DNA of 64,000 nt from Sipunculus nudus. Lineage: Eukaryota > Annelida > Sipuncula > Golfingiida > Sipunculidae. Positions 42,904 through 64,000 of the stretch are shown one piece after another. The position numbers were made by a program, and so were the translations under genes. How positions within the stretch are numbered: the stretch's first letter is position 1; every line of letters begins with the position of its first letter. The notes under the pieces were generated by a model. It worked only from the letters and a program-made list of their open reading frames with translations, did not search any database and was not told where the DNA came from. The stretch spans positions 678,501-742,500 of the forward strand of contig CM049309.1 of NCBI GenBank assembly GCA_026874595.1. The letters run 5' to 3'.

Positions 42904-43156
42904 ATGGCATCCCTTGTGAGAAGCTTTCGGCACCTCCCACTTTTAAAACCACGAAAGTTTGGTGCTGCGGTGACGTCAAACTTCAGCACAGACCCAAAGC
43001 AGCCCAGCACACTGGTAGGTTTTGATGAAATAAAAAGTTTCATCGAAAGATGTATGGTTGCTGTCGGAACAACTCCGAGCCATGCTGCCGCCCTTGCCGA
43101 CAATCTCCGAGCAGCCGACTACAGGGGACACTTCAGTCACGGTCTGAACAGGCTAG
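42904..43156 (+). CDS. dehydrogenase exon 1
   Basis: 84 codons plus one base. It starts [14 protein letters not shown] and ends at the active-site region [10 protein letters not shown], donor CTAG|GTGAGA. The final G joins AC of exon 2 to make Asp. Confidence 0.93.
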
Positions 43157-46100
43157 GTGAGATAGTGACCATGTTAGCAAGTAACTTTAATTGTTGAAAA
43201 CTGTTGCCTTTTCTTTATTCTCTCTGTTAAGCATAGATTCAAAATTCTTAAAAGTAAAAAAAAAAGAAGTTTTTTTTTTACAGTTTTTTCATGTTTTTTG
43301 CCATTTTGTTTACAATTATTTTTAATTCTAGTCTCATTTATAGGCTTAATTTTATCTAATCAGTATAACGACAATTAGACAAAAAACAGTAGGAACAGAC
43401 AACCCTCTCAATTCATTTATGAAAAAAAAAAAATGCAATTATGTTTGCTCTTCATTTTAGGATTTTTAATATGCTGTTTTAAATTAAATGTAATAATGAT
43501 TAAATCATTTACTGTAAACTACTGAAATAAATTTTTGTGGGTTTTTTTACTTGTTGATGTTGTATTCAGGCTTAGAGTAATCTGGAAATTTATATAATAT
43601 TTAAAAAATAATAATAATAATATATGTATATATATATATGTCACAAACATAAAATTGTTTCAATTAACCTTCGGCTCAGTCTGGATCAAATTGACAATTT
43701 GAGCTGGATTTATTTTTCAGACATGTATGTAGCAGACTTCAAAACTGTATCAACAATTTGAGCTGGATTTATTTTTCAGACATGTATGTAGCAGACTTCA
43801 AAACTGTATCAACAATTTGAGCTGGATTTATTTTTCAGACATGTATGTAGCAGACTTCAAAACTGTATCAACAATTTGAGCTGGATTTATTTTTCAGACA
43901 TGTATGTAGCAGACTTCAAAACTGTATCAACAATTTGAGCTGGATTTATTTTTCAGACATGTATGTAGCAGACTTCAAAACTGTATCAACAATTTGAGCT
44001 GGATTTATTTTTCAGACATGTATGTAGCAGACTTCAAAACTGTATCAACAATTTGAGCTTGATTTATTTTTCAGACATGTATGTAGCAGACATCAAAACT
44101 GTATCAACAATTTGAGCTGGATTTATTTTTCAGACATGTATGTAGCAGACTTCAAAACTGTATCAACAATTTGAGCTGGATTTATTTTTCAGACATGTAT
44201 GTAGCAGACTTCAAAACTGTATCAACAATTTGAGCTTGATTTATTTTTCAGACATGTATGTAGCAGACTTCAAAACTGTATCAACAATTTGAGCTTGATT
44301 TATTTTTCAGACATGTATGTAGCAGACATCAAAACTGTATCAACAATTTGAGCTGGATTTATTTTTCAGACATGTATGTAGCAGACTTCAAAACTGTATC
44401 AACAATTTGAGCTGGATTTATTTTTCAGACATGTATGTAGCAGACATCAAAACTGTATCAACAATTTGAGCTGGATTTATTTTTCAGACATGTATGTAGC
44501 AGACTTCAAAACTGTATCAACAATTTGAGCTGGATTTATTTTTCAGACATGTATGTAGCAGACATCAAAACTGTATCAACAATTTGAGCTGGATTTATTT
44601 TTCAGACATGTATGTAGCAGACTTCAAAACTGTATCAACAATTTGAGCTGGATTTATTTTTCAGACATGTATGTAGCAGACATCAAAACTGTATCAACAA
44701 TTTGAGCTGGATTTATTTTTCAGACATGTATGTAGCAGACTTCAAAACTGTATCAACAATTTGAGCTGGATTTATTTTTCAGACGTGTATGTAGCAGACA
44801 TCAAAACTGTATCAACAATTTGAGCTGGATTTATTTTTCAGACATGTATGTAGCAGACTTCAAAACTGTATCAACAATTTGAGCTGGATTTATTTTTCAG
44901 ACATGTATGTAGCAGACTTCAAAACTGTATCAACAATTTGAGCTGGATTTATTTTTCAGACATGTATGTAGCAGACATCAAAACTGTATCAACAATTTGA
45001 GCTGGATTTATTTTTCAGACATGTATGTAGCAGACATCAAAACTGTATCAACAATTTGAGCTGGATTTATTTTTCAGACATGTATGTAGCAGACTTCAAA
45101 ACTGTATCAACAATTTGAGCTGGATTTATTTTTCAGACATGTATGTAGCAGACTTCAAAACTGTATCAACAATTTGAGCTGGATTTATTTTTCAGACATG
45201 TATGTAGCAGACTTCAAAACTGTATCAACAATTTGAGCTGGATTTATTTTTCAGACATGTATGTAGCAGACTTCAAAACTGTATCAACAATTTGAGCTGG
45301 ATTTATTTTTCAGACATGTATGTAGCAGACTTCAAAACTGTATCAACAATTTGAGCTGGATTTATTTTTCAGACATGTATGTAGCAGACTTCAAAACTGT
45401 ATCAACAATTTGAGCTGGATTTATTTTTCAGACATGTATGTAGCAGACTTCAAAACTGTATCAACAATTTGAGCTGGATTTATTTTTCAGACATGTATGT
45501 AGCAGACTTCAAAACTGTATCAACAATTTGAGCTGGATTTATTTTTCAGACATGTATGTAGCAGACTTCAAAACTGTATCAACAATTTGAGCTGGATTTA
45601 TTTTTCAGACATGTATGTAGCAGACTTCAAAACTGTATCAACAATTTGAGCTGGATTTATTTTTCAGACATGTATGTAGCAGACTTCAAAACTGTATCAA
45701 CAATTTGAGCTGGATTTATTTTTCAGACATGTATGTAGCAGACTTCAAAACTGTATCAACAATTTGAGCTGGATTTATTTTTCAGACATGTATGTAGCAG
45801 ACTTCAAAACTGTATCAACAATTTGAGCTGGATTTATTTTTCAGACATGTATGTAGCAGACTTCAAAACTGTATCAACAATTTGAGCTGGATTTATTTTT
45901 CAGACATGTATGTAGCAGACTTCAAAACTGTATCAACAATTTGAGCTGGATTTATTTTTCAGACATGTATGTAGCAGACTTCAAAACTGTATCAACAATT
46001 TGAGCTGGATTTATTTTTCAGACATGTATGTAGCAGACTTCAAAACTGTATCAACAATTTGAGCTGGATTTATTTTTCAGACATGTATGTAGCAGACTTC

Positions 46101-49100
46101 AAAACTGTATCAACAATTTGAGCTGGATTTATTTTTCAGACATGTATGTAGCAGACTTCAAAACTGTATCAACAATTTGAGCTGGATTTATTTTTCAGAC
46201 ATGTATGTAGCAGACTTCAAAACTGTATCAACAATTTGAGCTGGATTTATTTTTCAGACATGTATGTAGCAGACTTCAAAACTGTATCAACAATTTGAGC
46301 TGGATTTATTTTTCAGACATGTATGTAGCAGACTTCAAAACTGTATCAACAATTTGAGCTGGATTTATTTTTCAGACATGTATGTAGCAGACTTCAAAAC
46401 TGTATCAACAATTTGAGCTGGATTTATTTTTCAGACATGTATGTAGCAGACTTCAAAACTGTATCAACAATTTGAGCTGGATTTATTTTTCAGACATGTA
46501 TGTAGCAGACTTCAAAACTGTATCAACAATTTGAGCTGGATTTATTTTTCAGACATGTATGTAGCAGACTTCAAAACTGTATCAACAATTTGAGCTGGAT
46601 TTATTTTTCAGACATGTATGTAGCAGACTTCAAAACTGTATCAACAATTTGAGCTGGATTTATTTTTCAGACATGTATGTAGCAGACTTCAAAACTGTAT
46701 CAACAATTTGAGCTGGATTTATTTTTCAGACATGTATGTAGCAGACTTCAAAACTGTATCAACAATTTGAGCTGGATTTATTTTTCAGACATGTATGTAG
46801 CAGACTTCAAAACTGTATCAACAATTTGAGCTGGATTTATTTTTCAGACATGTATGTAGCAGACTACAAAACTGTATCAACAATTTGAGCTTGATTTATT
46901 TTTCAGACATGTATGTAGCAGACTTCAAAACTGTATCAACAATTTGAGCTGGATTTATTTTTCAGACATGTATGTAGCAGACTTCAAAACTGTATCAACA
47001 ATTTGAGCTTGATTTATTTTTCAGACATGTATGTAGCAGACTACAAAACTGTATCAACAATTTGAGCTTGATTTATTTTTCAGACATGTATGTAGCAGAC
47101 TTCAAAACTGTATCAACAATTTGAGCTTGATTTATTTTTCAAACATGTATGTAGCAGACTTCAAAACTGTATCAACAATTTGAGCTTGATTTATTTTTCA
47201 AACATGTATGTAGCAGACTTCAAAACTGTATCAACAATTTGAGCTTGATTTATTTTTCAAACATGTATGTAGCAGACTTCAAAACTGTATCAACAATTTG
47301 AGCTTGATTTATTTTCCAGACATGTATGTAGCAGACTTCAAAACTGTATCAACAATTTGAGCTTGATTTATTTTTCAAACATGTATGTAGCAGACTTCAA
47401 AACTGTATCAACAATTTGAGCTTGATTTATTTTCCAGACATGTATGTAGCAGACTTCAAAACTGTATCAACAATTTGAGCTTGATTTATTTTCCAGACAT
47501 GTATGTAGCAGACTTCAAAACTGTATCAACAATTTGAGCTGGATTTATTTTTCAGACATGTATGTAGCAGACTTCAAAACTGTATCTACAATTTGAGCTG
47601 GATTTATTTTCCAGACATGTATGTAGCAGACTTCAAAACTGTATCAACAATTTGAGCTTGATTTATTTTCCAGACATGTATGTAGCAGACTTCAAAACTG
47701 TATCAACAATTTGAGCTGGATTTATTTTTCAGACATGTATGTAGCAGACTTCAAAACTGTATCAACAATTTGAGCTTGATTTATTTTTCAGACATGTATG
47801 TAGCAGACTTCAAAACTGTATCAACAATTTGAGCTTGATTTATTTTCCAGACATGTATGTAGCAGACTTCAAAACTGTATCAACAATTTGAGCTGGATTT
47901 ATTTTTCAGACATGTATGTAGCAGAGGTAATTTTTTTCAAACATGTAGGTGGCAGACATTGTATCAACAATTTGAGCTGGATTTATTTTTCAGACATGTA
48001 TGTAGCAGACTTCAAAACTGTATCAACCATTTGAGCTGGATTTATTTTTCAGACATGTATGTAGCAGACTTCAAAACTGTATCAACAATTTGAGCTTGAT
48101 TTATTTTCCAGACATGTATGTAGCAGACTTCAAAACTGTATCAACAATTTGAGCTGGATTTATTTTTCAGACATGTATGTAGCAGAGGTAATTTTTTTCA
48201 AACATGTAGGTGGCAGACATTGTATCAACAATTTGAGCTGGATTTATTTTTCAGACATGTATGTAGCAGACTTCAAAACTGTATCAACAATTTGAGCTTG
48301 ATTTATTTTTCAGACATGTATGTAGCAGACTTCAAAACTGTATCAACAATTTGAGCTTGATTTATTTTCCAGACATGTATGTAGCAGACTTCAAAACTGT
48401 ATCAACAATTTGAGCTGGATTTATTTTTCAGACATGTATGTAGCAGAGGTAATTGTTTTCAAACATGTAGGTGGCAGACATTGTATCAACAATTTGAGCT
48501 GGATTTATTTTTCAGACATGTATGTAGCAGACTTCAAAACTGTATCAACCATTTGAGCTGGATTTATTTTTCAGACATGTATGTAGCAGACTTCAAAACT
48601 GTATCAACAATTTGAGCTGGATTTATTTTTCAGACATGTATGTAGCAGACATTGTATCATTAATTTGAGCTTGATTTATTTTCCAGACATGTATGTAGCA
48701 GACATTGTATCAACAATTTGAGCTGGATTTATTTTTCAGACATGTATGTAGCAGACTTCAAAACTGTATCAACAATTTGAGCTGGATTTATTTTCCAGAC
48801 ATGTATGTAGCAGACTTCAAAACTGTATCAACAATTTGAGCTGGATTTATTTTTCAGACATGTATGTAGCAGACTTCAAAACTGTATCAACAATTTGAGC
48901 TGGATTTATTTTTCAGACATGTATGTAGCAGACTTCAAAACTGTATCAACAATTTGAGCTGGATTTATTTTTCAGACATGTATGTAGCAGACTTCAAAAC
49001 TGTATCAACAATTTGAGCTGGATTTATTTTTCAGACATGTATGTAGCAGACTTCAAAACTGTATCAACAATTTGAGCTTGATTTATTTTTCAGACATGTA

Positions 49101-52100
49101 TGTAGCAGACTTCAAAACTGTATCAACAATTTGAGCTGGATTTATTTTTCAGACATGTATGTAGCAGACTTCAAAACTGTATCAACAATTTGAGCTTGAT
49201 TTATTTTTCAGACATGTATGTAGCAGACTTCAAAACTGTATCAACAATTTGAGCTGGATTTATTTTTCAGACATGTATGTAGCAGACTTCAAAACTGTAT
49301 CAACAATTTGAGCTGGATTTATTTTTCAGACATGTATGTAGCAGACTTCAAAACTGTATCAACAATTTGAGCTTGATTTATTTTTCAGACATGTATGTAG
49401 CAGACTTCAAAACTGTATCAACAATTTGAGCTGGATTTATTTTTCAGACATGTATGTAGCAGACTTCAAAACTGTATCAACCATTTGAGCTTGATTTATT
49501 TTTCAGACATGTATGTAGCAGACTTCAAAACTGTATCAACCATTTGAGCTTGATTTATTTTTCAGACATGTATGTAGCAGACTTCAAAACTGTATCAACC
49601 ATTTGAGCTGGATTTATTTTTCAGACATGTATGTAGCAGACTTCAAAACTGTATCAACAATTTGACCTATATTTATTTTTCAAACATGTATGTAGCAGAG
49701 GTAATTTTTTTCAAACATGTAGGTGGCAGACATTGTATCATCAATTTGAGCTTGATTTATTTTTCAGACATGTATGTAGCAGACTACAAAACTGTATCAA
49801 CAATTTGAACTGGATTAATTTTTTATAGACATGTATGTAGCAGACTTCAAAACTGTATCAACAATTTGAGCTGGATTTATTTTTCAGACGTATGTAGCAG
49901 ACGTAATTTTTTTTAGACATATATGTAGCAGACATTGTATCAACAATTTGAGCTGGATTTATTTTTCAGACATGTATGTAGCAGACATAAAAAAAAACTG
50001 TATTAACAGTCTGAGCTGGATTTATTTTTCAGCCATGTATGTAGCAGACATCAAAACTGTATCAACAATTTGAGCTGGATTTATTTTTCAGACATGTATG
50101 TAGCAGACTACAAAACTGTATCAACAATTTGAGCTGGATTTATTTTTCAGACATGTATGTAGCAGACATAAAAAAAACTGTATTAACAGTCTGAGCTGGA
50201 TTTATTTTTCAGCCATGTATGTAGCAGACATCAAAACTGTATCAACAATTTGAGCTGGATTTATTTTTCAGACATGTATGTAGCAGACTACAAAACTGTA
50301 TCAACAATTTGAACTGGATTTATTTTTTTCAGACGTGTGTATCAGACATCAAAACTGTATCAACAATTTGAGCTGGATTTATTTTTCAGTCATGTATGTA
50401 GCAGACGTAATTTTTTTCAGACATGTATGTAGCAGACATTGTATCAACAGTTTGAGCTGGATTTATTTTTTTCAGACATGTATGTAGCAGACATCAAAAC
50501 TGTATCAACAATTTGAGCTGGATTTATTTTTTCAGACTTGTATGTATCAGACATCAAAACTGTATCAACAGTTTGAGCTGGATTTATTTTTTCAGACATG
50601 TATGTATCAGACATAATTTTTTTCAGACATGTATGTATCAGACATTAAAAGTGGGATCACAGCAAAAGATGGTGAGCCTGAGGTGATACATGAGACTTCC
50701 GCCACAGCCTGTATTGATGGGCGTAACCTGCTGGGTCCAGTAGTAGGCAACAAGGCCATGCAGATGGCAATACAGAAGGCTCAAGAAACAGGGGTCGGAT
50801 GGACTGTAGCTAAGGGTAGGTCCTCCCTCTACCCATCCTTGAAAAGTTTATGATCTGATATTCAGAAAAAGTTTTAGTAAATTGATGGATGAATTTGATT
50901 GCCACCTCCATTTTATGCAGATCCTTTTCTCTTGTGAATGAGTACAAAGTCTTCAGTTATTTTGTGAATGAGTATGTCCTCACTCCTCAGTTATTTTGTG
51001 AATTAGTACCTCCACTTATTTTGTGAGTGAGTACAACATCCTCAGTTATTTTTTGAACAAGTACGTCCTCAGTTATTTTGTGAGTACAACTTCTGCAGTT
51101 ATTTTGTGAACGAGTATATCCTCAGTTATTTTGTGAACGAGTACATCCTCAGTTATTTTGTGAACAAGTACGTCCTCAGTAATTTTGTGAGTACGTCTGC
51201 AGTTATTTTGTGAACAAGTATGTCCTCAGTTATTTTGTGAACAAGCATGTCCTCAGTTATTTTGTGAACGAGCATATCCTGTTATTTTGTGAACAAGCAT
51301 GTCCTCAGTTATTTTGTGAACGAGCATGTCCTCAGTTATTGTGTGAACAAGTACGTCCTCGATTATTTTGTGAGTACAATGTCTGCAGTTATTTTGTGAA
51401 TGAGTATGTCCTCAGTTATTTTATGAACAAGCATGTCCTCAGTTATTTTGTGAACGAGCATATCCTGTTATTTTGTGAACAAGCATGTCCTCAGTTATTT
51501 TGTGAACGAGCATGTCCTCAGTTATTGTGTGAACAAGTACGTCCTCGATTATTTTGTGAGTACAATGTCTGCAGTTATTTTGTGAATGAGTATGTCCTCA
51601 GTTATTTTATGAACGAGCATGTGTTCAGTTATTTTGTGAACGAGCATGTGTTCAGTTATTTTGTGAACAAGCATGTCCTCAGTTATTTTGTGAACAAGCA
51701 TGTCCTCAGTTATTTTGTGAACAATCATGTCCTCAGTTATTTTGTGAACGAGCATGTCCTCAGTTATTTTGTGAACGATCATTTCCTCAGTTATTTTGTG
51801 AACGAGTATGTCCTCAGTTATTTTGTGAACGAGCATGTCCTCAGTTATTTTGTGAATGAGCATGTCCTCAGTTATTTTGTGAACGATCATTTCCTCAGTT
51901 ATTTTGTGAACGAATATGTCCTCAGTTATTTTGTGAACGAGTATGTCCTCAGTTATTTTGTGAACGAGCATGTCCTCAGTTATTTTGTGAACGATCATTT
52001 CCTCAGTTATTTTGTGAACAAGTATGTCCTCAGTTATTTTGTGAACGAGTATGTCCTCAGTTATTTTGTTAACGAGCGTGTCCTCAGTTATTTTGTGAAC

Positions 52101-55100
52101 GATCATGTCCTCAGTTATTTTGTGAATGAGCATGTCCTCAGTTATTTTGTGAAACATCATGTCCTCAGTTATTTTGTGAACGAGCATGTCCTCAGTTATT
52201 TTGTGAACGATCATTTCCTCTGTTATTTTGTGAACGAGTATGTCCTCAGTTATTTTGTGAACGAGCATGTCCTCTGTTATTTTGTGAACGATCATTTCCT
52301 CTGTTATTTTGTGAACGAGTATGTCCTCAGTTATTTTGTGAACGAGCGTGTCCTCAGTTATTTTGTGAATGAGCATGTCCTCAGTTATTTTGTGAACGAG
52401 CATGTCCTCAGTTATTTTGTGAACGAGCATGTCCTCAGTTATTTTGTGAATGAGCATGTCCTCAGTTATTTTGTGAACGAACATGTCCTTAGTTATTTTG
52501 TGAATGAGCATGTCCTCAGTTATTTTGTGAATGAGCAAGTTCTCAGTTATTTTGTGAACGAGCATGTTCTCAGTTGTTTTGTGAACGAGCATGTTCTCAG
52601 TTATTTTGTGAACGAGTAGTCCTCAGCTATTTTGTGAACAAGCATGTCCTCAGTTATTTTGTGAACGAGCATGTCCTCAGTTATTTTGTGAACGAGTATG
52701 TCCTCAGTCATTTTGTGAACGAGTATGTCCTCAGCTAAGTATGTCCTAAGTTATTTTGTGAACAAGTATGTCCTAAGTTATTTTGCGAATGAGTATGTCC
52801 TCAGTTTTTTTTTTGAACGAGTTATTTTGTGAACTGGTGCTCTTGCTTTAATCCCTTCAAAGTATTCATGAATGTGTCATGGAAAATGGACTGAACTTAG
52901 TGTTGTTTCTAGCCACCATTTAAAGAAATGAAGCACTAGGGCTAAAGTTTTGTGTTGTTTCTTCTCACCATTTACAGAACTATAAGTCATCAGAGCTCTA
53001 GTTATGATCCATTGTCTAATGTCCACCTAGTCGTTAGACTGGCACATTTTTAAACTGTTAGATGTACAGATCCAAAATTAGACATACAATTGTGGAAATA
53101 TGCCATTTTTAAAGAATTCAATTTTCTTTAAAATATTTTTAACAAATTAATGATTGAAATAATTTCATCAATTCAATGATTCAAAATGTAATTATATCCA
53201 GCAGGTTGCGCTACCTACCAAAAAAATCCAGAAAGCCGTCCAAGTTGTATACATATGCAAAATTTAAGGCAGATAAGTCAAACCACTACATGTATATGAG
53301 TGATTTTTGCCCTTGGCAGACAAACAGATGGACGCTGTGCAAAAAAGGGTTTCAGGTGGTGCCACCAGTTTAGAGTATGATAAAGAGCTATGTGAGAACT
53401 ATACACATGCAAAACTTTGCCCCAATCGGTCAAACGGTTCCCAAGATATGAGCTTGGATATCTGCTGCATAAACTAGAATGCAGGTGGCGCCACCTGTCA
53501 TAAAATCAAGAGAGCTGTCGGGGATGTATAAACTTGCCAAATTTTAGGCAGATATGTCAAACCACTGCCGAGATATGAGTGATTTTATCCCATGGCAGAC
53601 AAACAGACGGGAGCTGTGCAAACATGGCTGCAGGTGGCGCCACCAGTTTTGCGTATGATGAAGAGCTATGTGAGATTTATACACATGCAAAATTTTGGCC
53701 CAATCAGTCAAACGGTTCCCTAGATATGAGCTTGGATGTCTGCAGCATAAACTTGATTGTAGGTGGCGCCACCTGTCATAAAATCAGAAAAGCTATCCAG
53801 GATGTATAAGCATGCCGAATTTCAGGTGAATTAGTCAAACCACTGCAGAGATATGAGTGATTTTAACCCAAGGCAGACGAACAGATGGACACTGTGCAAA
53901 CATGGTTGCAGATGGCGCCACCATTTTTTGTGTATGTTATAAAGCTCTCCAAGGGCTACATTTGTGCAAAAAAATTTTCCTGATCGGTCAAACGGTTCCT
54001 GAGATATGAGCTTGGATGTCTGCAGCGTAAACATGAATGAAGGTGGCGCCACCTGTCATAAAATCAGAAAAGCTATCCAGGATGTATACGCATGCCAAAT
54101 TTCAGGTGAATTAGTCAAGTCACTGCAGAGATATGAGTGATTTTAACCAAAGGCAGACAAACAGATGGACACTGTGCAAACATGGTTGCAGGTAGCGCCA
54201 CCATTTTTGGTGTATGTTATAAAGCTCTCCAAGGGCTTCATTTGTGCAAAAGAATTTTCCTGATCGGTCAAACGGTTCCCGAGATATGAGCTTGGATGTC
54301 TGCAGCGTAAACGTGAATGTAGGTGGCGCCACCTGTCATAAAATCAGAAAAGCTATCCAGGATGTATACCCATGCCAAATTTCAGGTGAATTAGTCAAGT
54401 CACTGCAGAGATATGAGTGATTTTAACCCAAGGCAGACGAACAGATGGACACTGTGCAAACATGGTTGCAGGTGGCGCCACCATTTTTGGTGTATGTTAT
54501 AAAGCTCTCCGAGGGCTACATTTGTGCAAAAGAATTTTCCTGATCGGTCAAACGGTACCTGAGATATGAGCTTGGATGTCTGCAGCGTAAACGTGAATGT
54601 AGGTGGCGCCACCTGTCATAAAATCAGAAAAGCTATCCAGGATGTTTACGCATGCGGAATTTCAGGTGAATTAGTCAAGTCACTGCAGAGATATGAGTGA
54701 TTTTAACCCAAGGCAGACGAACAGATGGACACTGTGCAAACATGGTTGTAGGTGGCGCCACCATTTTTGGTGTATGTTATAAAGCTCTCCGAGGGCTACA
54801 TTTGTGCAAAAAAATTTTCCTGATCGGTCAAACGGTTCCCGAGATATGTGGGTTTATGTGTGGAAACAGACACACAAACGGACGCAGAGCGCAGAGGAAA
54901 GGTCAGAGGTCAAAACAAAATCGGGGCGCAGCAGTTCACATGTGACCCGAACATAATCCCAGGTTTCGGAAAATTCCGCCCAGCGGTTACGGAGGAGTTC
55001 TCCGGACACTTATGCGGCGGCGGCGGCGGCGGCGTGCAGCTGAAAACATAGTATCCGCAAAACTCTGTTTTGGCGAATACAATTAAGTGATCAGCTTTAT

Positions 55101-57708
55101 TTGTCCATCTATATATTTTTAAACATTTAACAATTATGAATCATTTTTTTCTGCAGGCACTGTTGAATGAAATATAATATCCTTTATATATATGCAAAGG
55201 TGTTTTAACTCCCGCTGTTCTTTACCTCATCAATTACAACTGAGCACCCTGACCTATTGGTCCTTTGTTTTGTTGTTTTTATGCACAATTTAAAGATCTG
55301 AAGCACTATGGACTTGATTTGTGTGTTGTTCAATGCATCATTTAAAGAACTGATGCAAATTCTCTTCCCAGAACATTTCTACTTACTTTTTCTTGACTAG
55401 TAATTAATTTTTGTGTGGGGTTTAAATTATATATAAATATAAAATGTAGGATATTTGTCCATGTGTTGACTATATGAATCAGAGTAGGAGCAGGAAATAT
55501 ATCCAATAATTAAGTAACGTGACAGTAAGGTAACTGGAAATTAGTGTTCAGATCAATGGGGTCTACTTTTCATTTTTGCAATAATGATAAATATATATAA
55601 ATATATAAAAAATGACTGTTGCCAGTCTCCCATCAAACAACTCCAATTTAAAATTTTGGATTTGGTGTTTGGGGAAAAAAAACAACTATTATTTGTCACT
55701 TCATATCCATCTTTTGTAGGTTCCAACCATTATGGCATTGCAGGGTGGTATGCAATGCAAGCCTTGGAAAAAGGAATAATGGTAACATAAAACCTCAATA
55801 CAATTTTGCATTTTAATAACCCTTGACTCTAACTTCTCACTTATGTGATTGTATATAATTATATTTTGTTGAATATTGAGAAAGATTTTTCTAAAATGAA
55901 TATTTTTATTTCAATTCAAGGATTGTATTTTGGATTAGCAGTGATAGCAATATTATTGAGTTTCAGTGTGTCTTTCTGTTAAAGGTTTTATTTATATAAA
56001 CACTTAAAAAGTATACTAATGACTTTTTGACTGCAGAATGTTTTGCATAGCTTATCTGTGGATAAAGTATGTATAATATTTAATTTTATCCTTTAAAGTT
56101 TATTAATTTTATTTACTTTCAGGGTATGTCTTTCACAAACACCTCACCACTTCAGGTACCAACACGAGCCAGACAGGTAAGTAAAAATGGAAAAAAAAGT
56201 CACTCAAGCACACATACATTGAGAGAATGAAAAAGAGTGAGAGATTTAGAGCAAGGGAGAGAGAGAGATTTGTATCAGGTTACAGATTCTTTATGGGTTC
56301 AGAGTTATTACATGATGCAGTCTAAGCAGAAAGCACCAAGAATTTTGTTAATATACAGCTACGTTTCCCATGATATTTTGGAAATGGGTTAAAATCGTAA
56401 TGTTTTTGGCAACAATACTTGACATGTTGATTGGAGGTGTGGACCAGACACCCAATTGAGCCTGGACCTGTCTGGTTCACAATTTTGGTTGGACCAGACC
56501 AGACTGCTAACACAAAATATCAGATCACTTTCGAAACTGGTTTGGACCACCCCATCTTAATTAATTTAATTGCTTGTGTTATAGATGAATTTGTTTCATT
56601 TCTTAAGGTTCAACCAACAATCATACCCTTATTATGGACAATGTGTTTGTTAAGCAACAATAGGACTAGACCACTCTGATGATGGACTGGAACAACAGGA
56701 GATGGTGTGATCTCGTCTGCACCTCTAATGTTGATAAGAGGTTCTGGTCTGAAACTGATTGGCTGAGAACTGATGGTTGCCTGAAATAAAGTTGATACCA
56801 CAGGGGCTGTCATAAACTGATATAAGTTAGAATACTCTGGTTGGCTTTATGCATGTTGGGGATTCTACTTCACAATATCTACAGAATTATGAATAAACAT
56901 GAATAAGATGTCCAATCAACACAGGTGAAAACTACTTTATACAATGGCCTCACTAGCATCTCATTCTTAATTCATGTATGTAGCCTTTACAGTCAAATAT
57001 ACAGTATATCAAAGATAGTGTTACAAATAACATAAAATACACCTTCCTCGTTATTTCTTAAACATACTTTGGAGATATTCTGACAAATGGGCAAACATGG
57101 TTGAACATATACCCTCAGCCACATTGTGTGACACACAGGTAGCTATGGGTGAACACATAATCTCAGCCATATTGTATGACAGACAAACAACATGGGTGAA
57201 CACATAACCTCAGCCATATTATGTGACAAACAGACAGACACGTGTGAACACATAACCTCAGCCATATTGTGTTGCAGACAGAAAAAAAACGTAGCGACAC
57301 ATAATGTCAGCCAGCTTGACTGACAGCTTGCAAGATACCTCAAGCACTGTCTCTTGCTTTGCAGGCAACCTTAGGAACTAACCCAATTGCTGTGGCAGCA
57401 CCAGGTAAAGAGGGAGACAGTTTTGTTCTTGACATGGCTACCTCTACCTGTGCCCTTGGAAAGGTGAGATGATATAACAATGTTTACATAGTGTAACTAA
57501 GTGCAACTTTACACTTACATGGTTGTAAGGTATATACATTCAAACTAACATGTAATGAAATACACCACTGCAGAATGTTTTAGTGAACTTTTGATGGGGA
57601 AAAGGTAAAAAGAGTCATCAGGAGTAAGTTAATGTAGGCTCAAAAAATTCACAGGTCCAAACACAGAGTAACAACTTACTTCTTTTCATTAGTGAGATGA
57701 GAATTGTA

Positions 57709-57758
<50 letters not shown>

Positions 57759-60700
57759 TTATCTACACATTATCACTGTAGGTTGAGCTACATAATGTCA
57801 AGGGTATTCCTATACCTAGAGGCTGGGGAGCAGACTCAAAGGGCAGGGTAAGTAAAAAAATTACTATTATATTTTTTGCCCCAGAAAATACACTGGACTG
57901 ACATTTTGTGGGCAGGTAATGCAAACTTTATGTGTGATGAACTCTCTTGTGGAGACTTTCATGCAAGCATGAGATTTTCAGTGCTACTTGGCTTGCTGTG
58001 TGTTTTCTGTGTTGCATTCCGCTGGTAAAAATACAACTAATAAAATATTAGCCATGCTCCATATCCATGCATGCGATTTGCAGCACAGCAAAAACATGCA
58101 TAAGTTTTGGAATCCAGCAGTCCTAGATTTGTGAGGCAACGGCATGGGAATTCTGCCTAAATGACCTACCATATTTTGTTTCACCACCTGATTTATGAGG
58201 CATCGTCATGGGAGTTCTGCCTAAATGACCTACCATATTTTGTTTCACCACCTGATTTATGAGGCATCGTCATGGGAATTCTGCCTAAATGACCTACCAT
58301 ATTTTGTTTCACCACCTGATTTATGAGGCATCGTCATGGGAATTCTGCCTAAATGACCTACCATATTTTGTTTTACCACCTGATTTATGAGGCATTGTCA
58401 TGGGAGTTCTGCCTAAATGACCTACCATATTTTGTTTCACCACCTGATTTATGAAGCATCGGCATGGGAATTCTGCCTAAATGACCTACCATATTTTGTT
58501 TCACCACCTGATTTATGAGGCATCGGCATGGGAATTCTGCCTAAATGACCTACCATATTTTGTTTCACCACCTGATTTATGAGGCATCGTCATGGGAATT
58601 CTGCCTAAATGACCTACAATATTTTGTTTCACCACCTGATTTATGAGGCATCGTCATGGGAATTCTGCCTAAATGACCTACCATATTTTGTTTCACCACC
58701 TGATTTATGAGGCATCGTCATGGGAATTCTGCCTAAATGACCTACCATATTTTGTTTCACCACCTGATTTATGAGGCATAGTCATGGGAATTCTGCCTAA
58801 ATGACCTACCATATTTTGTTTCACCACCTGATTTATGAGGCATCGTCATGGGAATTCTGCTTAAATGACCTACCATATTTTGTTTCACCACCTGATTTAT
58901 GAGGTATCGTCATGGGAATTCTGCCTAAATGACCTACCATATTTTGTTTCACCACCTGATTTATGAGGCATCGTCATGGGAATTCTGCCTAAATGACCTA
59001 CCATATTTTGTTTCACCACCTGATTTATGAGGCATCGTCATGGGAATTCTGCCTAAATGACCTACCATATTTTGTTTCACCACCTGATTTATGAGGCATC
59101 GTCATGGGAATTCTGCCTTAATGACCTACCATATTTTGTTTCACCACCTGATTTATGAGGCATCGTCATGGGAATTCTGCCTAAATGACCTACCATATTT
59201 TGTTTCACCACCTGATTTATGAGGCATCGTCATGGGAATTCTGCCTAAATGACCTACCATATTTTGTTTCACCACCTGATTTATGAGGCATCGTCATGGG
59301 AATTCTGCCTAAATGACCTACCATATTTTGTTTCACCACCTGATTTATGAGGCATCTTCATGGGAATTCTGCCAAAATGACCTGCCATATTTTGTTTCAC
59401 CACCTGATTTATGAGGCATCGTCATGGGAATTCTGCCTAAATGACCTACCATATTTTGTTTCACCACCTGATTTATGAGGCATCGTCATGGGAATTCTGC
59501 CTAAATGACCTACCATATTTTGTTTCACCACCTGATTTATGAGGCATCGTCATGGGAATTCTGCCTAAATGACCTACCATATTTTGTTTCACCACCTGAT
59601 TTATGAGGCATCGTCATGGGAATTCTGCCTAAATGACTTACCATATTTTGTATCACCACCTGAATTATGAGGCATTGTCATGGGAATTCTGCCTAAATGA
59701 CTTACCATATTTTGTATCACCACCTGAATTATGAGGCATCGTCATGGGAATTCTGCTTAAATGACCTACCATATTTTGTATCACCTCCTGAATTATGAGG
59801 CATCGTCATGGGAATTCTGCCTAAATGACCTACCATATTTTGTTTCACCACCTGAATTATGAGGCATCGTCATGGGAATTCTGCTTAAATGACCTACCAT
59901 ATTTTGTTTCACCACCTGATTTATGAGGCATCGTCATGGGAATTCTGCCTGAATGATCACCATATTTTGTATCACCACCTGATTTATGAGGCATCGTCAT
60001 GGGAATTCTGCCTAAATGACCTACCATATTTTGTATCACCACCTGATTTATGTGGCATCGTCATGGGAATTCTACCTAAATGACCTACCATATTTTGTTT
60101 CACCACCTGATTTATGAGGCATCGTCATGGGAATTCTGCCTCAATGACCTACCATATTTTGTATCACCACCTGATTTATGAGGCATCGTCATGGGAATTC
60201 AGCCTAAATGACCTACCATATTTTGTTTCACCACCTGATTTATGAGGCATCGTCATGGGAATTCAGCCTAAATGACCTACCATATTTTGTTTCACCACCT
60301 GATTTATGAGGCATTGTCATGGGAATTCTGCCTAAATGACCTACCATATTTTGTATCACCACCTGATTTATGAGGCATCGTCATGGGAATTCTGCCTAAA
60401 TGACCTACCATATTTTGTTTCACCACCTGATTTATGAGGCATCGTCATGGGAATTCTGCCTAAATGACCTACCATATTTTGTTTCACCACCTGATTTATG
60501 AGGCATCGTCATGGGAATTCTGCCTAAATGACCTACCATATTTTGTTTCACCACCTGATTTATGAGGCATCGTCATGGGAATTCAGCCTAAATGACCTAC
60601 CATATTTTGTTTCACCACCTGATTTATGAGGCATCGTCATGGGAATTCTGCCTAAATGACCTACCATATTTTGTTTCACCACCTGATTTATGAGGCATCG

Positions 60701-63700
60701 TCATGGGAATTCAGCCTAAATGACCTACCATATTTTGTTTCACCACCTGATTTATGAGGCATCGTCATGGGAATTCTGCCTAAATGACCTACCATATTTT
60801 GTTTCACCACCTGATTTATGAGGCATCGTCATGGGAATTCTGCCTAAATGACCTACCATATTATGTTTCACCACCTGATTTATGAGGCATCGTCATGGGA
60901 ATTCTGCCTAAATGACCTACCATATTTTGTTTCACCACCTGATTTATGAGGCATCTTCATGGGAGTTCTGCCTAAATGACCTACCATATTTTGTTTCACC
61001 ACCTGATTTATGAGGCATCGTCATGGGAGTTCTGCCTAAATGACCTACCATATTTTGTTTCACCACCTGATTTATGAGGCATCGTCATGGGAGTTCTGCC
61101 TAAATGACCTACCATATTTTGTTTCACCACCTGATTTATGAGGCATCGTCATGGGAGTTCTGCCTAAATGACCTACCATATTTTGTTTCACCACCTGATT
61201 TATGAGGCATCGTCATGGGAGTTCTGCCTAAATGACCTACCATATTTTGTTTCACCACCTGATTTATGAGGCATCCTCATGGGAGTTCTGCCTAAATGAC
61301 TTACCATATTTTGTTTCACCACCTGATTTATGAGGCATCGTCATGGGAGTTCTGCCTAAATGACCTACAATATTTTGTTTCACCACCTGATTTATGAGGC
61401 ATCGTCATGGGAATTCTGCCTAAATGACCTACCATATTTTGTTTCACCACCTGATTTATGAGGCATCCTCATGGGAATTCTGCCTTAATGACCTACCATA
61501 ATTTGTTTCACCACCTGATTTATGAGGCATCGTCATGGGAATTCTGCCTAAATGACCTTCCATATTTTGTTTCACCAACTGTAATTGTCAGGAAAGTTTG
61601 CATTTCCCACGTGGCACACACATACAAAATGCTTGCATGGGAAAAGAATGACCACACAGGACTTGCATGCATTTGCTGTATGGCAGATATTGTACTCATG
61701 AAAAGTAATATTAACAATGATATCCTCAGACTGAGAGGTTGTGGATCCTATGGTGTTTGCACTGTGACTGCCATAATCAAATCTTGTACACATGATAACT
61801 ATAAAAATTGTTCACTGATCTCTTTCAAATTTTACATGTGCATAGATATTTTAATTGTTAGTACTACATACCTTGTAAGCAGCATTTAGATATAAGTAAT
61901 GACTATAGGAACATTTTTAAAAGCAATATTACAAGTGTAACATTTCCCTAAACAGAGGATTTCTTTGCAGGAAACCTTTGACCCAAAGGAGATGTTAGAT
62001 GGTGGTGGGCTGCTCCCATTGGGTGGATCTGAACAAAGTAGTAAGTCATGTGGCCTTGAACTGTTTGGAGTGCTCTGGGACTTATAAAAGTAGAGTATAA
62101 ATAAGGGCCATTTAGGGGGTCCTCTGTTTGAGATTTGTATTATAATGTAAGCAGTTGCTTGCTGCTGCTAATGCAAAGTTACTCTTCAAGTTATATATGA
62201 ATTCATTGCAATGAATATAATAATAAGTGTGTAATGAAGTGGTCACAGTCAGGCAAACATATTAGCGCAGAGAAGGTGCCTAGCAGGTAATGACATGGCT
62301 GCCTGCTGGGTTTCCAGCGGTGTTTGAGATCATGTTAAATCTGAAAAATTAGCTTACCTTTTTCAGCCAGGGAAAGGCTTGCCATTGTAGAAAAATGGTC
62401 AAAATCAGGGGAATGGCAAGGAATTTGATTGGCTAAAAGAGAAAATGTTCAGTCTATAATATTGTAACATGTACCTCATGCAAAAATAGCATATCCACTC
62501 AAAGATATGTACAGTACATAATAAGGATTCGGACATGTACAGTAAATAATAGTGATTTAGATATGTACAGTACAATAGTGATTTCGATTTGTACAGTACG
62601 TAATAGTGATTTAGTTTCTCCCTGCAACCACTCTGTACAGCAGCAACATGTCCAACAGGAAATGGCTGATATGATTATCTTTGAAATATGAAAAATTGGG
62701 GGTAAAACTCGGGAAGCTTAATTGTTATATGTGCTGGGAATCGTGTGTAAGTGTAAAGCAGTATAAAAATATAAAAAAATAACAGAAAGATTTTGTAATA
62801 CCATCAAGTAATTGATACCAAATTACTGTATGACTGCCATGACACACCATGTGACACTCCAGTGAGTTTTATGCATATGTTTTGTCTAATTCTCACTAGG
62901 TGGCTACAAGGGTTATGGCCTTGCGATGTTAGTCGAGGTGTTATGCGGAATACTCTCTGGAGCTGAATGGGGACCAAACATCCGAGTATGGCGCAACACT
63001 GACAGGGTCGCTAATCTTGTTAGTATTTTATGTCATTTCACAATTTTTAGATATTATAGTATACACAATGCTAGGAGACCTGTTGGGTCAACATATGAAG
63101 GAAAATGTTTCTAAAATAAAAATATTGAAATGAATAATATGTAATTATTAAGTCTTGATTCCAGGTTTTTATGAACGAGTTTAGGAATGATGTAATTTAT
63201 AAATTGTAACTTGGATTTTCTCAGGGCCAATGCTTCATAGCCGTTGATCCGGCTGCGTTCGGTGTCGGTTTTACAGACAGGATGCAGGCCCTCATGGACA
63301 CCTGTAGGGGACTGGAGCCGGTCAGTACTAGCTTTCTACATTTATCAGCATTTTCATTTTGATACCATCATTACATGCTTAACATTACCTTCTTATTTCC
63401 TCTGCCTGTCTGGCAGTTTAAAAATTGACTGACTGTAATTGTTGTAAATAGTTCTTGAACTGTTTCATGTGATTTTGTAATTTGATTTAGTCTCAGTTAT
63501 GATAAAAGCTCATGTGACAGAGTAAATTTATTTTCAAAGAATCATAGGTAAGCATTTTTAAATTTAGTTTATATGTCATAGTTTTTATATCATTCTCTAA
63601 AATATATTCATATAGATATATTATATAAATTTTTATATCGTCAAGACCTGAGTGCACATATAAGTTGTGATGAATGAGAGGTGACCAGCCCAGGGCTTAT

Positions 63701-63866
63701 TCCTTTACTGAAATGTTCTACAGCTCAGGAGTTAGATATGTTATTATAAAATCAGGCTGAAGGAGAGACAGAGGTGCTGGTGCCCGGTGACCCAGAGAGG
63801 AAGCACATGGCAAAGTGTGATGCACAGGGGGGAATTCAGTACCATCCCAACCAGATCAGCCAACTG
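42904..63866 (+). CDS. malate/L-lactate dehydrogenase, Ldh2/YlbC type (10 exons, 3' end outside window)
   Basis: NAD(P)-dependent 2-hydroxyacid oxidoreductase of the malate/L-lactate dehydrogenase 2 family (Pfam Ldh_2), unrelated in fold to classical LDH/MDH. Exons: 42904-43156, 50627-50815, 55720-55781, 56123-56176, 57365-57463, 57782-57847, 61971-62040, 62900-63018, 63225-63320, 63756-63866. All junctions are GT-AG, the phases agree, and they join to 373 codons. An in-frame stop (TAG 42892) just before the ATG supports the start. Residues 1-30 are basic and Ser-rich with almost no acidic residue, suggesting mitochondrial import. Family motifs in order: [10 protein letters not shown] (75-84), [54 protein letters not shown]. 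By length only the last few tens of residues are missing. Introns 1, 2, 4, 6 and 7 carry tandem arrays. The specific substrate cannot be read from the sequence. Confidence 0.95.
43157..50626 (+). other. dehydrogenase intron 1 (7.5 kb)
   Basis: Donor GTGAGA. The first ~500 bases are AT-rich with A/T runs, and the rest is the 59-bp array that ends at the true acceptor TTTTTTTCAG (50626). Confidence 0.93.
43686..50640 (+). repeat. 59-bp tandem array, ~115 copies, each carrying a copy of the exon 2 splice acceptor
   Basis: The period of 59 bp is exact in most of the array (43751, 43810 and so on). Each unit contains TATCAAC (branch-point-like), 27 bases later ATTTATTTTTCAG, then ACATGTATGTAGCAGAC, which matches the start of exon 2 (ACATGTATGTATCAGAC). 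Substitutions define subtypes: CTGG or CTTG before the T tract, TTC or ATC after GCAGA, and CAGAC or CCAGAC or CAAAC. Units at about 45.05-46.85 kb are almost identical, and those after 49.6 kb are the most diverged. Four longer variants with GCAGAGGTAAT occur at about 47.93, 48.19, 48.45 and 49.70 kb. The last copy overlaps exon 2. Confidence 0.97.
50627..50815 (+). CDS. dehydrogenase exon 2
   Basis: 63 codons' worth, phase 1 to phase 1. Encodes (D)[30 protein letters not shown] and GVGWTVAK. Its first ~17 bases are the sequence duplicated throughout the upstream array. Donor AAGG|GTAGGT. Confidence 0.95.
50930..52850 (+). repeat. 27-bp minisatellite in intron 2, roughly 60 copies
   Basis: The unit is TTATTTTGTGAACGAGCATG plus TCCTCAG. 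As 27 is divisible by three and the unit has no stop in certain frames, long open frames arise on both strands (51210-52619 plus, reading HVLSYFVNE repeats; 51549-52592 minus, reading HKITEDMLV repeats). They have no family similarity and lie inside an intron, so they were not called as genes. Flanks (50930-51200) hold more irregular copies. Confidence 0.95.
52851..53170 (+). other. intron 2 spacer, nothing recognisable
   Basis: AT-rich sequence between the minisatellite and the 280-bp repeat element. No coding signal or repeat recognised. Confidence 0.5.
53190..55045 (+). mobile_element. 280-bp tandem-core element with GGTGGCGCCACC palindromes
   Basis: About six core units of about 280 bp. 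Each contains two half-units, about 150 and 130 bp, centred on the perfect 12-bp palindrome GGTGGCGCCACC (near 53484, 53634, 53761, 54042, 54322, 54472, 54602, 54752). Each also has 'gagatatgagtgattttaac' and 'gatcggtcaaacggt' blocks. The tail has 'cagacacacaaacggacgcag', 'ggtcagaggtcaaaac' and a (GGC)n tract at 55014-55033. Minus-strand frames of about 70 codons recurring every 280 bp are by-products. Probably a non-autonomous element related to the pearl type. Confidence 0.7.
55085..55290 (+). repeat. dispersed repeat copy, partner of 395-560
   Basis: It shares 'aattatgaat', T run, 'gcactg', 'aatatcct' and 'ttttaactccc' with the left end of the window. It also carries a reversed pearl-like end (CAACTGAGCACCCTGACC) at about 55237-55254. 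Confidence 0.5.
55291..55719 (+). other. end of dehydrogenase intron 2
   Basis: AT-rich, ending in the acceptor CTTTTGTAG at 55719. No other feature seen. Confidence 0.7.
55720..55781 (+). CDS. dehydrogenase exon 3
   Basis: Acceptor TTTTGTAG, donor ATG|GTAACA. Encodes (G)[18 protein letters not shown], the conserved SNHxG segment of the family. Phase 1 to 0. Confidence 0.93.
55782..56122 (+). other. dehydrogenase intron 3
   Basis: GT-AG intron of 341 bases, AT-rich, no repeats noted. Confidence 0.9.
56123..56176 (+). CDS. dehydrogenase exon 4
   Basis: 18 codons, phase 0 to 0, encoding [18 protein letters not shown]. Acceptor TACTTTCAG, donor CAG|GTAAGT. Confidence 0.93.
56177..57364 (+). 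other. dehydrogenase intron 4 with a ~47-bp tandem repeat
   Basis: At about 57090-57315 there are five degenerate copies of 'gtgaacacataacctcagcc' and 'atattgtgtgacagac' with roughly 47-bp spacing. The rest is unique-looking and AT-rich. Confidence 0.8.
57365..57463 (+). CDS. dehydrogenase exon 5
   Basis: 33 codons, phase 0 to 0: [14 protein letters not shown], then [21 protein letters not shown] and DMATS are conserved family motifs. Acceptor GCTTTGCAG, donor AAG|GTGAGA. Confidence 0.95.
57464..57781 (+). other. dehydrogenase intron 5 with (AT)n microsatellite
   Basis: A pure (AT)n tract at about 57711-57751 sits 30 bases upstream of the acceptor. Confidence 0.9.
57782..57847 (+). CDS. dehydrogenase exon 6
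   Basis: 22 codons, phase 0 to 0, encoding [20 protein letters not shown] plus GR. Acceptor ATCACTGTAG, donor AGG|GTAAGT. Confidence 0.92.
57848..61970 (+). other. dehydrogenase intron 6 (4.1 kb)
   Basis: Mostly a 64-bp minisatellite. About 61590-61960 is unique AT-rich sequence ending in the acceptor TTTCTTTGCAG. Confidence 0.9.
58125..61585 (+). repeat. 64-bp minisatellite in intron 6, about 54 copies
   Basis: The unit contains GATTTATGAGGCATCGTCAT, GGGAATTCTGCC, TAAATGACCTACCATATTTT and GTTTCACCACCT. Period 64 is exact over most of the array (58190, 58254 and so on). Subtypes are clustered: GGGAGTTC near 61.0-61.35 kb, GGGAATTCAGCC near 60.2-60.75 kb and GTATCACC near 59.65-60.35 kb. Every unit carries an EcoRI site (GAATTC) unless it is the GAGTTC subtype. 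Unlike the intron 1 array, the unit does not resemble the neighbouring exon ends. Confidence 0.95.
61971..62040 (+). CDS. dehydrogenase exon 7
   Basis: 23 codons plus one base: [19 protein letters not shown], then SEQS. Donor AGTA|GTAAGT. In this family an 'LLPLGG' segment precedes the KGYGLA motif. Confidence 0.93.
62041..62899 (+). other. dehydrogenase intron 7
   Basis: Contains a degenerate ~28-bp tandem repeat ('atgtacagtacataatagtg') at about 62500-62615, four copies. Nothing else recognised. Confidence 0.8.
62900..63018 (+). CDS. dehydrogenase exon 8
   Basis: Completes a split Ser codon, then [30 protein letters not shown] and [14 protein letters not shown]...E.L.G.L.GA is the most recognisable family block. 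Donor CTT|GTTAGT is a weaker variant. Confidence 0.94.
63225..63320 (+). CDS. dehydrogenase exon 9
   Basis: 32 codons, phase 0 to 0: [20 protein letters not shown], then [18 protein letters not shown] is the expected C-terminal-domain motif. Acceptor GATTTTCTCAG, donor CCG|GTCAGT. Confidence 0.93.
63321..63755 (+). other. dehydrogenase intron 9
   Basis: 435 bases, AT-rich, acceptor ATAAAATCAG. No repeats noted. Confidence 0.9.
63756..63866 (+). CDS. dehydrogenase exon 10
   Basis: 37 codons: [20 protein letters not shown], then [17 protein letters not shown]. The VPGDPE motif is typical of the family near the C-terminus. Donor CTG|GTGAGT. The last coding part (no stop yet seen) must lie beyond the window. 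Confidence 0.92.
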
Positions 63867-64000
63867 GTGAGTATCTAAACCAGGTCAGACACACTGTAAG
63901 TACCATCCCAACCAAATCAGCCAACTGGTGAGTATCTAAACCAAGTCAGACACACTGTAAGTACCATCCCAACCAGATCAGCCAACTGGTGAGTATCTAA
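63839..64000 (+). repeat. 61-bp tandem repeat copying the exon 10 end and its donor
   Basis: GTACCATCCCAACC recurs at 63839, 63900 and 63961, so the period is 61. Each unit contains the last 28 coding bases of exon 10, the donor CTGGTGAGT and about 24 intron bases. Copy 1 overlaps the real exon. The array runs off the window, so its size is unknown. Confidence 0.93.

Follow-up and report, generated by a model that had tools for sequence, protein, structure and literature searches.

A dehydrogenase gene of Sipunculus nudus carries a giant minisatellite of its own splice acceptor, probably tolerated by splicing, and a second array of a splice donor

How can an intron be spliced when more than one hundred copies of its own 3' splice site precede the genuine one? 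This question is raised by a stretch of 64,000 nucleotides from Sipunculus nudus (hereafter the window; C4:678501-742500 of a 1.43-Gb assembly with 153 contigs, C4 being contig CM049309.1), in which intron 1 of a malate/L-lactate dehydrogenase-type gene carries such copies over ~6.9 kb. An earlier note, made from the letters of the DNA, had described this array and offered three readings of it, namely that it may regulate the output of the enzyme through nonsense-mediated decay, force the choice of the last acceptor, or simply be tolerated. The analysis reported here established that the acceptor array is a minisatellite derived from the junction of intron 1 with exon 2 in the gene itself, and that it is a very large case of a known, obscure repeat kind. 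It is, in our judgement, probably a tolerated minisatellite of the type called mirage in lancelets, with a second one grown from the donor of exon 10, and splicing would use the exon-proximal site.

The gene was found to be intact, with 11 coding exons at 42904-65851 (window-equivalent positions) and an open frame of 388 aa. Exon positions were set by homology, reading frame and splice sites. In a profile search, residues 40-373 matched PF02615 (malate/L-lactate dehydrogenase) with 391 bits, and the best solved relative was 1v9n (E 6.5e-69, aligned over residues 40-316). Since this alignment crossed the exon 1/exon 2 junction without a gap, the coding sequence of exon 2 begins at position 50627, and the exon is older than the array. 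Scans of the window against Rfam and for tRNAs gave no hits. The exons, with a slash marking the exon end in donor sequences, are as follows:

42904-43156, + strand: exon 1 of the PF02615 gene, coding part; starts with ATG, donor TAG/GTGAGA; placed by the joined frame and the PF02615 and 1v9n matches
50627-50815, + strand: exon 2, source of the exon-derived part of each array unit; 100% identical in the second gene copy
55720-55781, + strand: exon 3
56123-56176, + strand: exon 4
57365-57463, + strand: exon 5
57782-57847, + strand: exon 6
61971-62040, + strand: exon 7
62900-63018, + strand: exon 8
63225-63320, + strand: exon 9
63756-63866, + strand: exon 10; its 3' end and its donor, CAACTG/GTGAGTATC, are multiplied in the intron that follows
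65804-65851 (window-equivalent, beyond the window), + strand: exon 11

In intron 1, wrap-around alignment resolved 118 head-to-tail units over 43680-50626 (~6.9 kb); the array does consist of copies of the intron's own 3' splice site, as had been claimed, and the previous count of ~115 becomes 118. Two features define it, the second of them, like the main period, detected with Tandem Repeats Finder (TRF):

43690-50626, + strand: acceptor array of 118 units, 117 of them decoys and the last the genuine acceptor (TRF, wrap-around alignment)
50587-50645, + strand: last direct repeat, period 31, linking the final decoy acceptor (50595) to the genuine acceptor (50626)

Units of 59 bp accounted for 99 of the 118, four measured 84 bp and the rest 29-63 bp (29-31, 41 or 53-63), the first being a 41-base partial unit. 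TRF placed the 59-bp period at 43694-50406 (113.7 copies), from where diverged units continued to exon 2, and it also reported higher-order periods of 202 and 261 bp; 58 of the 118 units were one identical sequence. Each unit ended in an acceptor or an acceptor relic, after which the first ~19-25 bases of exon 2 were repeated. The genuine acceptor at 50626, which the earlier note had correctly identified as the last of the series, stood at the end of the last unit, and the 117 decoys carried AG in 112 cases and AA in five. Long units also contained TATCAAC, a putative branch point, with 25 bases from its end to the end of CAG by direct reading, instead of the 27 previously given. In addition, GAGGTAATT followed a 17-base exon-like piece at four places in 43690-50626.

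The origin of the unit at the exon edge was evident from the junction itself. Across the acceptor and the exon start, 28 nt recurred exactly 31 bp upstream, and the last, 31-bp unit had the same first 19 bases as exon 2. When a 30-nt probe of the exon 2 junction was compared with the adjacent 2,990 bp, 52 places matched it at 24 or more of the 30 bases, against a maximum of 20 among 20 shuffles. Like that of a mirage, the unit combines a piece of an exon with the intron sequence on the other side of a genuine splice site. In the dominant 59-bp form, the portion resembling the exon comprised ACATGTATGTAGCAGAC and a weaker continuation; the match past ~25 bases is not secure, and the alignment of the exon 2 tail beyond this point, made to see whether TATCAAC might itself stem from the exon, was equalled by shuffles in 255 of 5,000 cases for the 3'-most unit form and in 1,651 of 5,000 for the consensus.

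The likeness to exon 2 might in principle be coincidental, or the array an unrelated satellite from elsewhere, given that 20,453 of the 64,000 window bases lay in tandem arrays (counted at period ≥10 and ≥2.5 copies). The exact 28-nt junction duplication and the 52 strong matches, with no shuffle above 20/30, made the chance of this negligible, and upheld the view of the earlier note that the match is genuine. Moreover, the start of exon 2 is coding and aligned to 1v9n, so the exon is the source, and no other copy of the array was found in the assembly: a 307-base piece searched through the 1.43 Gb gave at least 69 matches, all at this gene's two copies on C4 (match counts of array pieces are lower bounds here and below). 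With regard to how the array arose, TCAGACAT was present twice at the genuine exon edge, 15 bp apart (50623 and 50638), and this direct repeat probably let a duplication span the acceptor. Unequal exchange or slippage would then have multiplied the unit within the intron, where length is free, and selection on the protein would have kept the outermost copy at the exon.

A mirror image of this array, which is missing from the earlier note, was observed in the last intron (63867-65803, mostly past the window), which opens with an array of its own donor:

63867-64000, + strand: start of the donor array, which runs ~1,500 bases past the window, to window-equivalent ~65500, the intron ending at 65803

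Here, the repeat was CCAACCAGATCAGCCAACTG/GTGAGTATC, from the exon 10 donor, with a period of ~61 composed of two halves of ~29-32 bp, and again the unit spanned part of the exon and the adjoining intron across the real splice site. Between 63867 and 65560 there were 36 GTRAGT sites, the genuine one included, and use of any of the 35 decoys would bring in a stop 12 nt after the end of the exon. A 141-base piece of the donor array had 24 matches in the assembly, only at the two copies of the gene. For an overview of the whole gene, a 30-nt junction probe for each of its 20 splice sites was compared with the adjoining intron over a length of up to 3 kb, with 20 shuffles of two-base blocks as the control each time. 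Two of the 20 were amplified, one acceptor and one donor, with 52 and 18 places at ≥24/30 (shuffle maxima, 20 and 18). None of the other 18 probes found a place at ≥24/30 in the adjoining intron within this 3-kb limit, their best values being 13-18; 16 of them did not exceed the shuffle maximum, and two, both at exon 5 edges, were one base above it.

The whole gene recurs at C4:1386478-1410011, 0.66 Mb off on the same scaffold. It is intact in both places, and identity between the copies is 100% for exons 2-11 and 98.4% for exon 1. In the compared stretch, similarity spanned window positions 7302-70075 and ended at a 500-N gap in the scaffold of the window copy. Sequence 3.4-6.4 kb past this gap matched stretches at most ~0.4 Mb from an end of C3, C6, C10, C11 and C13, among others (13 of 1,230 candidates scored), which suggests that one haplotype's chromosome end may have been joined into the scaffold. 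As the homology ends at the gap and a chromosome-end-like repeat lies beyond it, a retained alternative haplotype is favoured, and this is probably what the second copy is, being the simplest reading; a real segmental duplication is also conceivable. The gap and the ensuing repeats, which match near-end stretches of several other contigs, fall within C4:748576-755500 (L009, L010). Elsewhere on C4, 478 kb upstream of the window, C4:200001-202001 recurred at 100% at C4:921280-923279, with the remaining 500 bases at C4:945686, ~22 kb on.

By wrap-around alignment, the acceptor array of the second copy also contained 118 units, in a different order, and the equal count is probably a coincidence. 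Over both copies, 44 unit types were distinguished, 16 of them common to both; the 11 exon-proximal units were identical, and the order of the rest differed. The second copy showed a 143-bp higher-order period (18.7 copies). AG had been lost to AA in five of 117 decoys in the window copy and in 23 of 117 in the other (94 of 117 keep AG). Among 32 of the 38 distinct near-full-length unit forms (six were dropped for gaps), the final G varied in nine, a value third after those of two columns varying in ten. Loss of AG in decoys argues against selection to keep them working, with the restriction that array units exchange variants, so that the AG changes are not independent events.

These differences also bear on an artefact of assembly, which had been named beforehand as a test that the array might fail, and in which its copy number would be inflated or invented by the assembler. 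Long perfect runs, such as the 58 identical units, are where assemblers err, and a scaffold that appears to carry both haplotypes in series is not fault-free. However, two copies were assembled that share their last units and have similar flanks, yet are built differently (143-bp, 18.7 copies, versus 202- and 261-bp periods), which weakens this objection without removing it and leads us to regard an artefact as improbable.

Mismatch between the copies was mosaic. Taken per kb, it amounted to 0.2-2.2% at 7-20 kb, 0-0.6% at 20-34 kb and 1-4% at 34-43.7 kb, rising to 6-10% at 38-40 kb, where a purine-rich array lies; after exon 2, it was 0-0.3% outside the 27-bp and 64-bp arrays. Six chosen segments past the acceptor array contained 7 mismatches in 11,772 columns, and two segments before it contained 40 in 1,825 and 34 in 788. 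Across the array itself (43157-50626 compared with C4:1386731-1394438), divergence fell from ~2-4% to <0.1%. This drop, together with the identity of the 11 units next to exon 2, could be accounted for by a past exchange inside the array or by a phase switch of the assembly at that place.

Mirages have been described in lancelets as tandem repeats that span exon-intron boundaries; excerpts of PMC3087553 place them at 3' and 5' boundaries in Adh3 and in the globins BflGb6 and BflGb9, with Adh3 unit lengths of 10-72 bp and BflGb6 unit counts of 6 in one haplotype and 3 in another, and excerpts of PMC3902484 add troponin C and PGBD5. In these portions, splicing is reported as not evidently disturbed (PMC3087553, PMC3902484), and cluster-boundary units as exempt from homogenisation (PMC3087553). 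As far as these sources go, the arrays described here are similar in that both boundary types are affected, many but not all units keep AG or GT (AG in 112 of 117 and 94 of 117 decoys; 36 GTRAGT sites), and the boundary unit escapes homogenisation. A further likeness is instability between haplotypes, of unit number in the lancelet and of unit order in the acceptor array here, where the two copies are taken to be haplotypes. In contrast to the 6 and 3 units of BflGb6, ~118 units over 6.9 kb occupy one intron here; higher-order periods and the combination of an acceptor and a donor array in one gene are further differences, as is the host, an animal other than a lancelet. The earlier note knew of no described minisatellite built from an acceptor at this scale. 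This is sound with respect to scale, as no comparable acceptor array of >100 units was found in the open-access literature searched, but not with respect to kind, since lancelet mirages, according to the same excerpts, include acceptors. What appears to be new is the scale, the higher-order structure and the presence of both boundary types in one gene. Similarly, in intron gain or change by tandem duplication at exon boundaries (the Rogers model, as cited in PMC3087553; a human tandem-repeat study, PMC2812944, in excerpt; and, judging by its listing, potato RdRp, PMC4974935), duplication across a splice site yields extra splice signals, as it does here; unlike in those cases, no new intron or exon is evident in this gene, and the repeats lie within existing introns.

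The consequences of decoy use were examined in computed joins of exon 1 to each of the 117 decoys, with the array retained. A premature stop followed in all of them, as had been predicted, and in 103 of 117 it lay at the predicted 41 nt past the junction (maximum, 155 nt). For the second-copy array, computed with the window copy's exons, the stop was at 41 nt in 84 of 117, and the largest of 114 listed distances was 245 nt. In human IFI6 (6-16/G1P3), according to excerpts of PMC4526556, citing Turri et al. 1995, a donor minisatellite at an exon end resembles the donor array described here, and the use of two downstream repeat donors gives rise to further protein isoforms. By contrast, none of the 117 acceptor decoys or of the 35 counted GTRAGT donor decoys in the present gene escaped an early stop, and its main array is one of acceptors.

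Such stops could serve regulated unproductive splicing, in which decoys would be used at a set rate and lower the output of the enzyme via nonsense-mediated decay, with array size as the dial. Both the acceptor stops, all within 155 nt in the window copy, and the donor stops at 12 nt agree with this, and the pyrimidine tracts of the decoys resemble those of real sites (mean fraction in AG decoys, 0.60; the gene's own ten acceptors, 0.47-0.76; genuine acceptor, 0.65). However, a stop within a retained intron-derived unit is expected anyway, AG is unprotected and its loss differs between the copies, and unit order is not conserved between them. To our knowledge, moreover, autoregulation by nonsense-mediated decay is not known for enzymes of this class. 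We therefore consider this reading unlikely: regulation of this sort is possible and is not specifically supported by the data. Quite unlikely, too, is a form of it in which the length of the array, together with the proportion of units disarmed by AA, acts as a heritable, fast-changing dial on enzyme output through the same decay. If this were true, more than 100 acceptors of similar pyrimidine content would compete for one exon in a natural splice-site competition experiment, and enzyme output would depend on the strictness of the spliceosome for the exon-proximal site.

In most units of 43690-50626, GTATGT, a possible donor, was observed four bases past the decoy acceptor. As the array contains 104 occurrences of AGACATGTATGT and 115 of GTATGT, one might envisage stepwise (recursive) removal, in which exon 1 hops along the array and GTATGT acts each time as the new donor. 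This motif nevertheless simply belongs to the Met-Tyr-Val codons with which exon 2 opens, and at each hop four bases (ACAT) would stay behind and shift the frame, whereas true recursive splice sites are zero-length; we thus regard such a route as very improbable.

The assembly contains myosin and kinesin genes divided into exons (126 matches for kinesin), which points to an animal. In order to place the two arrays in a wider frame, 20 myosin exon loci were hand-picked from 75 matches, and their 40 edges, defined as the ends of the profile match +/-40 bases, were inspected. No large array was found at any of these 40 edges. One locus, L071 (C12:77121557-77122467), contained at ~509-578 a two-copy tandem duplication, period 35, of the apparent myosin donor edge GAG/GTAGGG, as detected by TRF only, which is possibly a mirage at its first step. 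Self-comparison flagged one of the 20 loci at an exon edge, L069, and this candidate was rejected, the repeat lying by reading inside the intron and leaving out the splice site; in L059 and L066, TRF flagged repeats that lie at a distance from the exon. Tandem arrays covered 233 of 20,113 bases around the sampled myosin exons, compared with the 20,453 of 64,000 in the window, the samples being unmatched and the former exon-biased; for the gene's own exons with 400 bp on each side, the figure was 1,352 of 9,967 bases.

Among the three readings offered by the earlier note, toleration fits best, because AG is unprotected (5 and 23 of 117 lost), the order of units differs while exons 2-11 are identical, and a donor array is present as well. 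A tolerated mirage is further supported by intact exons, by the reported lack of disturbance of splicing in lancelets, by the amplification of only two of 20 sites with array pieces that match nowhere else in the genome, and by the L071 duplication, which looks like an early stage (one of 20 sampled exons). The spliceosome would most likely pass over the decoys: recognition of exon 2 would start from the donor at its own downstream end and settle on the closest acceptor upstream. Any message truncated by decoy use would be discarded, and the array would be close to neutral. Only four AG decoys lay within 400 nt of the exon 2 donor, giving exons of 220, 280, 340 and 395 nt.

Several observations weigh against this interpretation. 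By local signals, the genuine acceptor is no better than the decoys (pyrimidine fraction, 0.65 versus a mean of 0.60), and the last 31-bp unit, at the genuine acceptor, is without TATCAAC. The first decoy (43720) is transcribed 6.9 kb ahead of the genuine site, so that decoys have a head start. With such a lead and no better genuine signals, some decoy use is likely, and the array would then carry a mild cost or have a regulatory effect. Furthermore, the donor intron is identical in both copies (0 differences in 1,937 bp), so that instability was seen for one array only; if exchange or a phase switch occurred in the acceptor array, this identity would reflect recent shared ancestry and not constraint. 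Finally, as the 20 sampled exons showed no large array, two in one gene are unusual.

The present case would extend a little-known repeat class, described in lancelets and one human gene, to another animal genome and to more than 100 copies. The locus offers a clean test of spliceosome choice among many similar acceptors, by distance to exon and donor rather than by sequence. It also shows that, within a single gene, exon edges near either end have seeded minisatellites, and new introns or isoforms might arise in this way.

Two other introns of the gene carried tandem arrays. In intron 2, a 27-bp array at 51039-52811 had long open frames, of 469 aa on one strand and 347 aa on the other, and ~63 copies, versus 52 in the other gene copy; compared with the exon 2 donor edge, it gave no match above shuffles. 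In intron 6, a 64-bp array at 58126-61581 had 54 copies, versus 64 in the other gene copy. With respect to the assembly as a whole, a PF00171 search gave 11 matches, all single open frames and bacterial-looking. Single-frame dehydrogenase genes were found on C61, C62, C72, C74, C75, C77, C82, C83, C85-C89, C93, C109, C111 and C128; these contigs, of which the nine with known length measure 0.3-3.3 Mb, look bacterial and may be contaminants or symbionts in the assembly.

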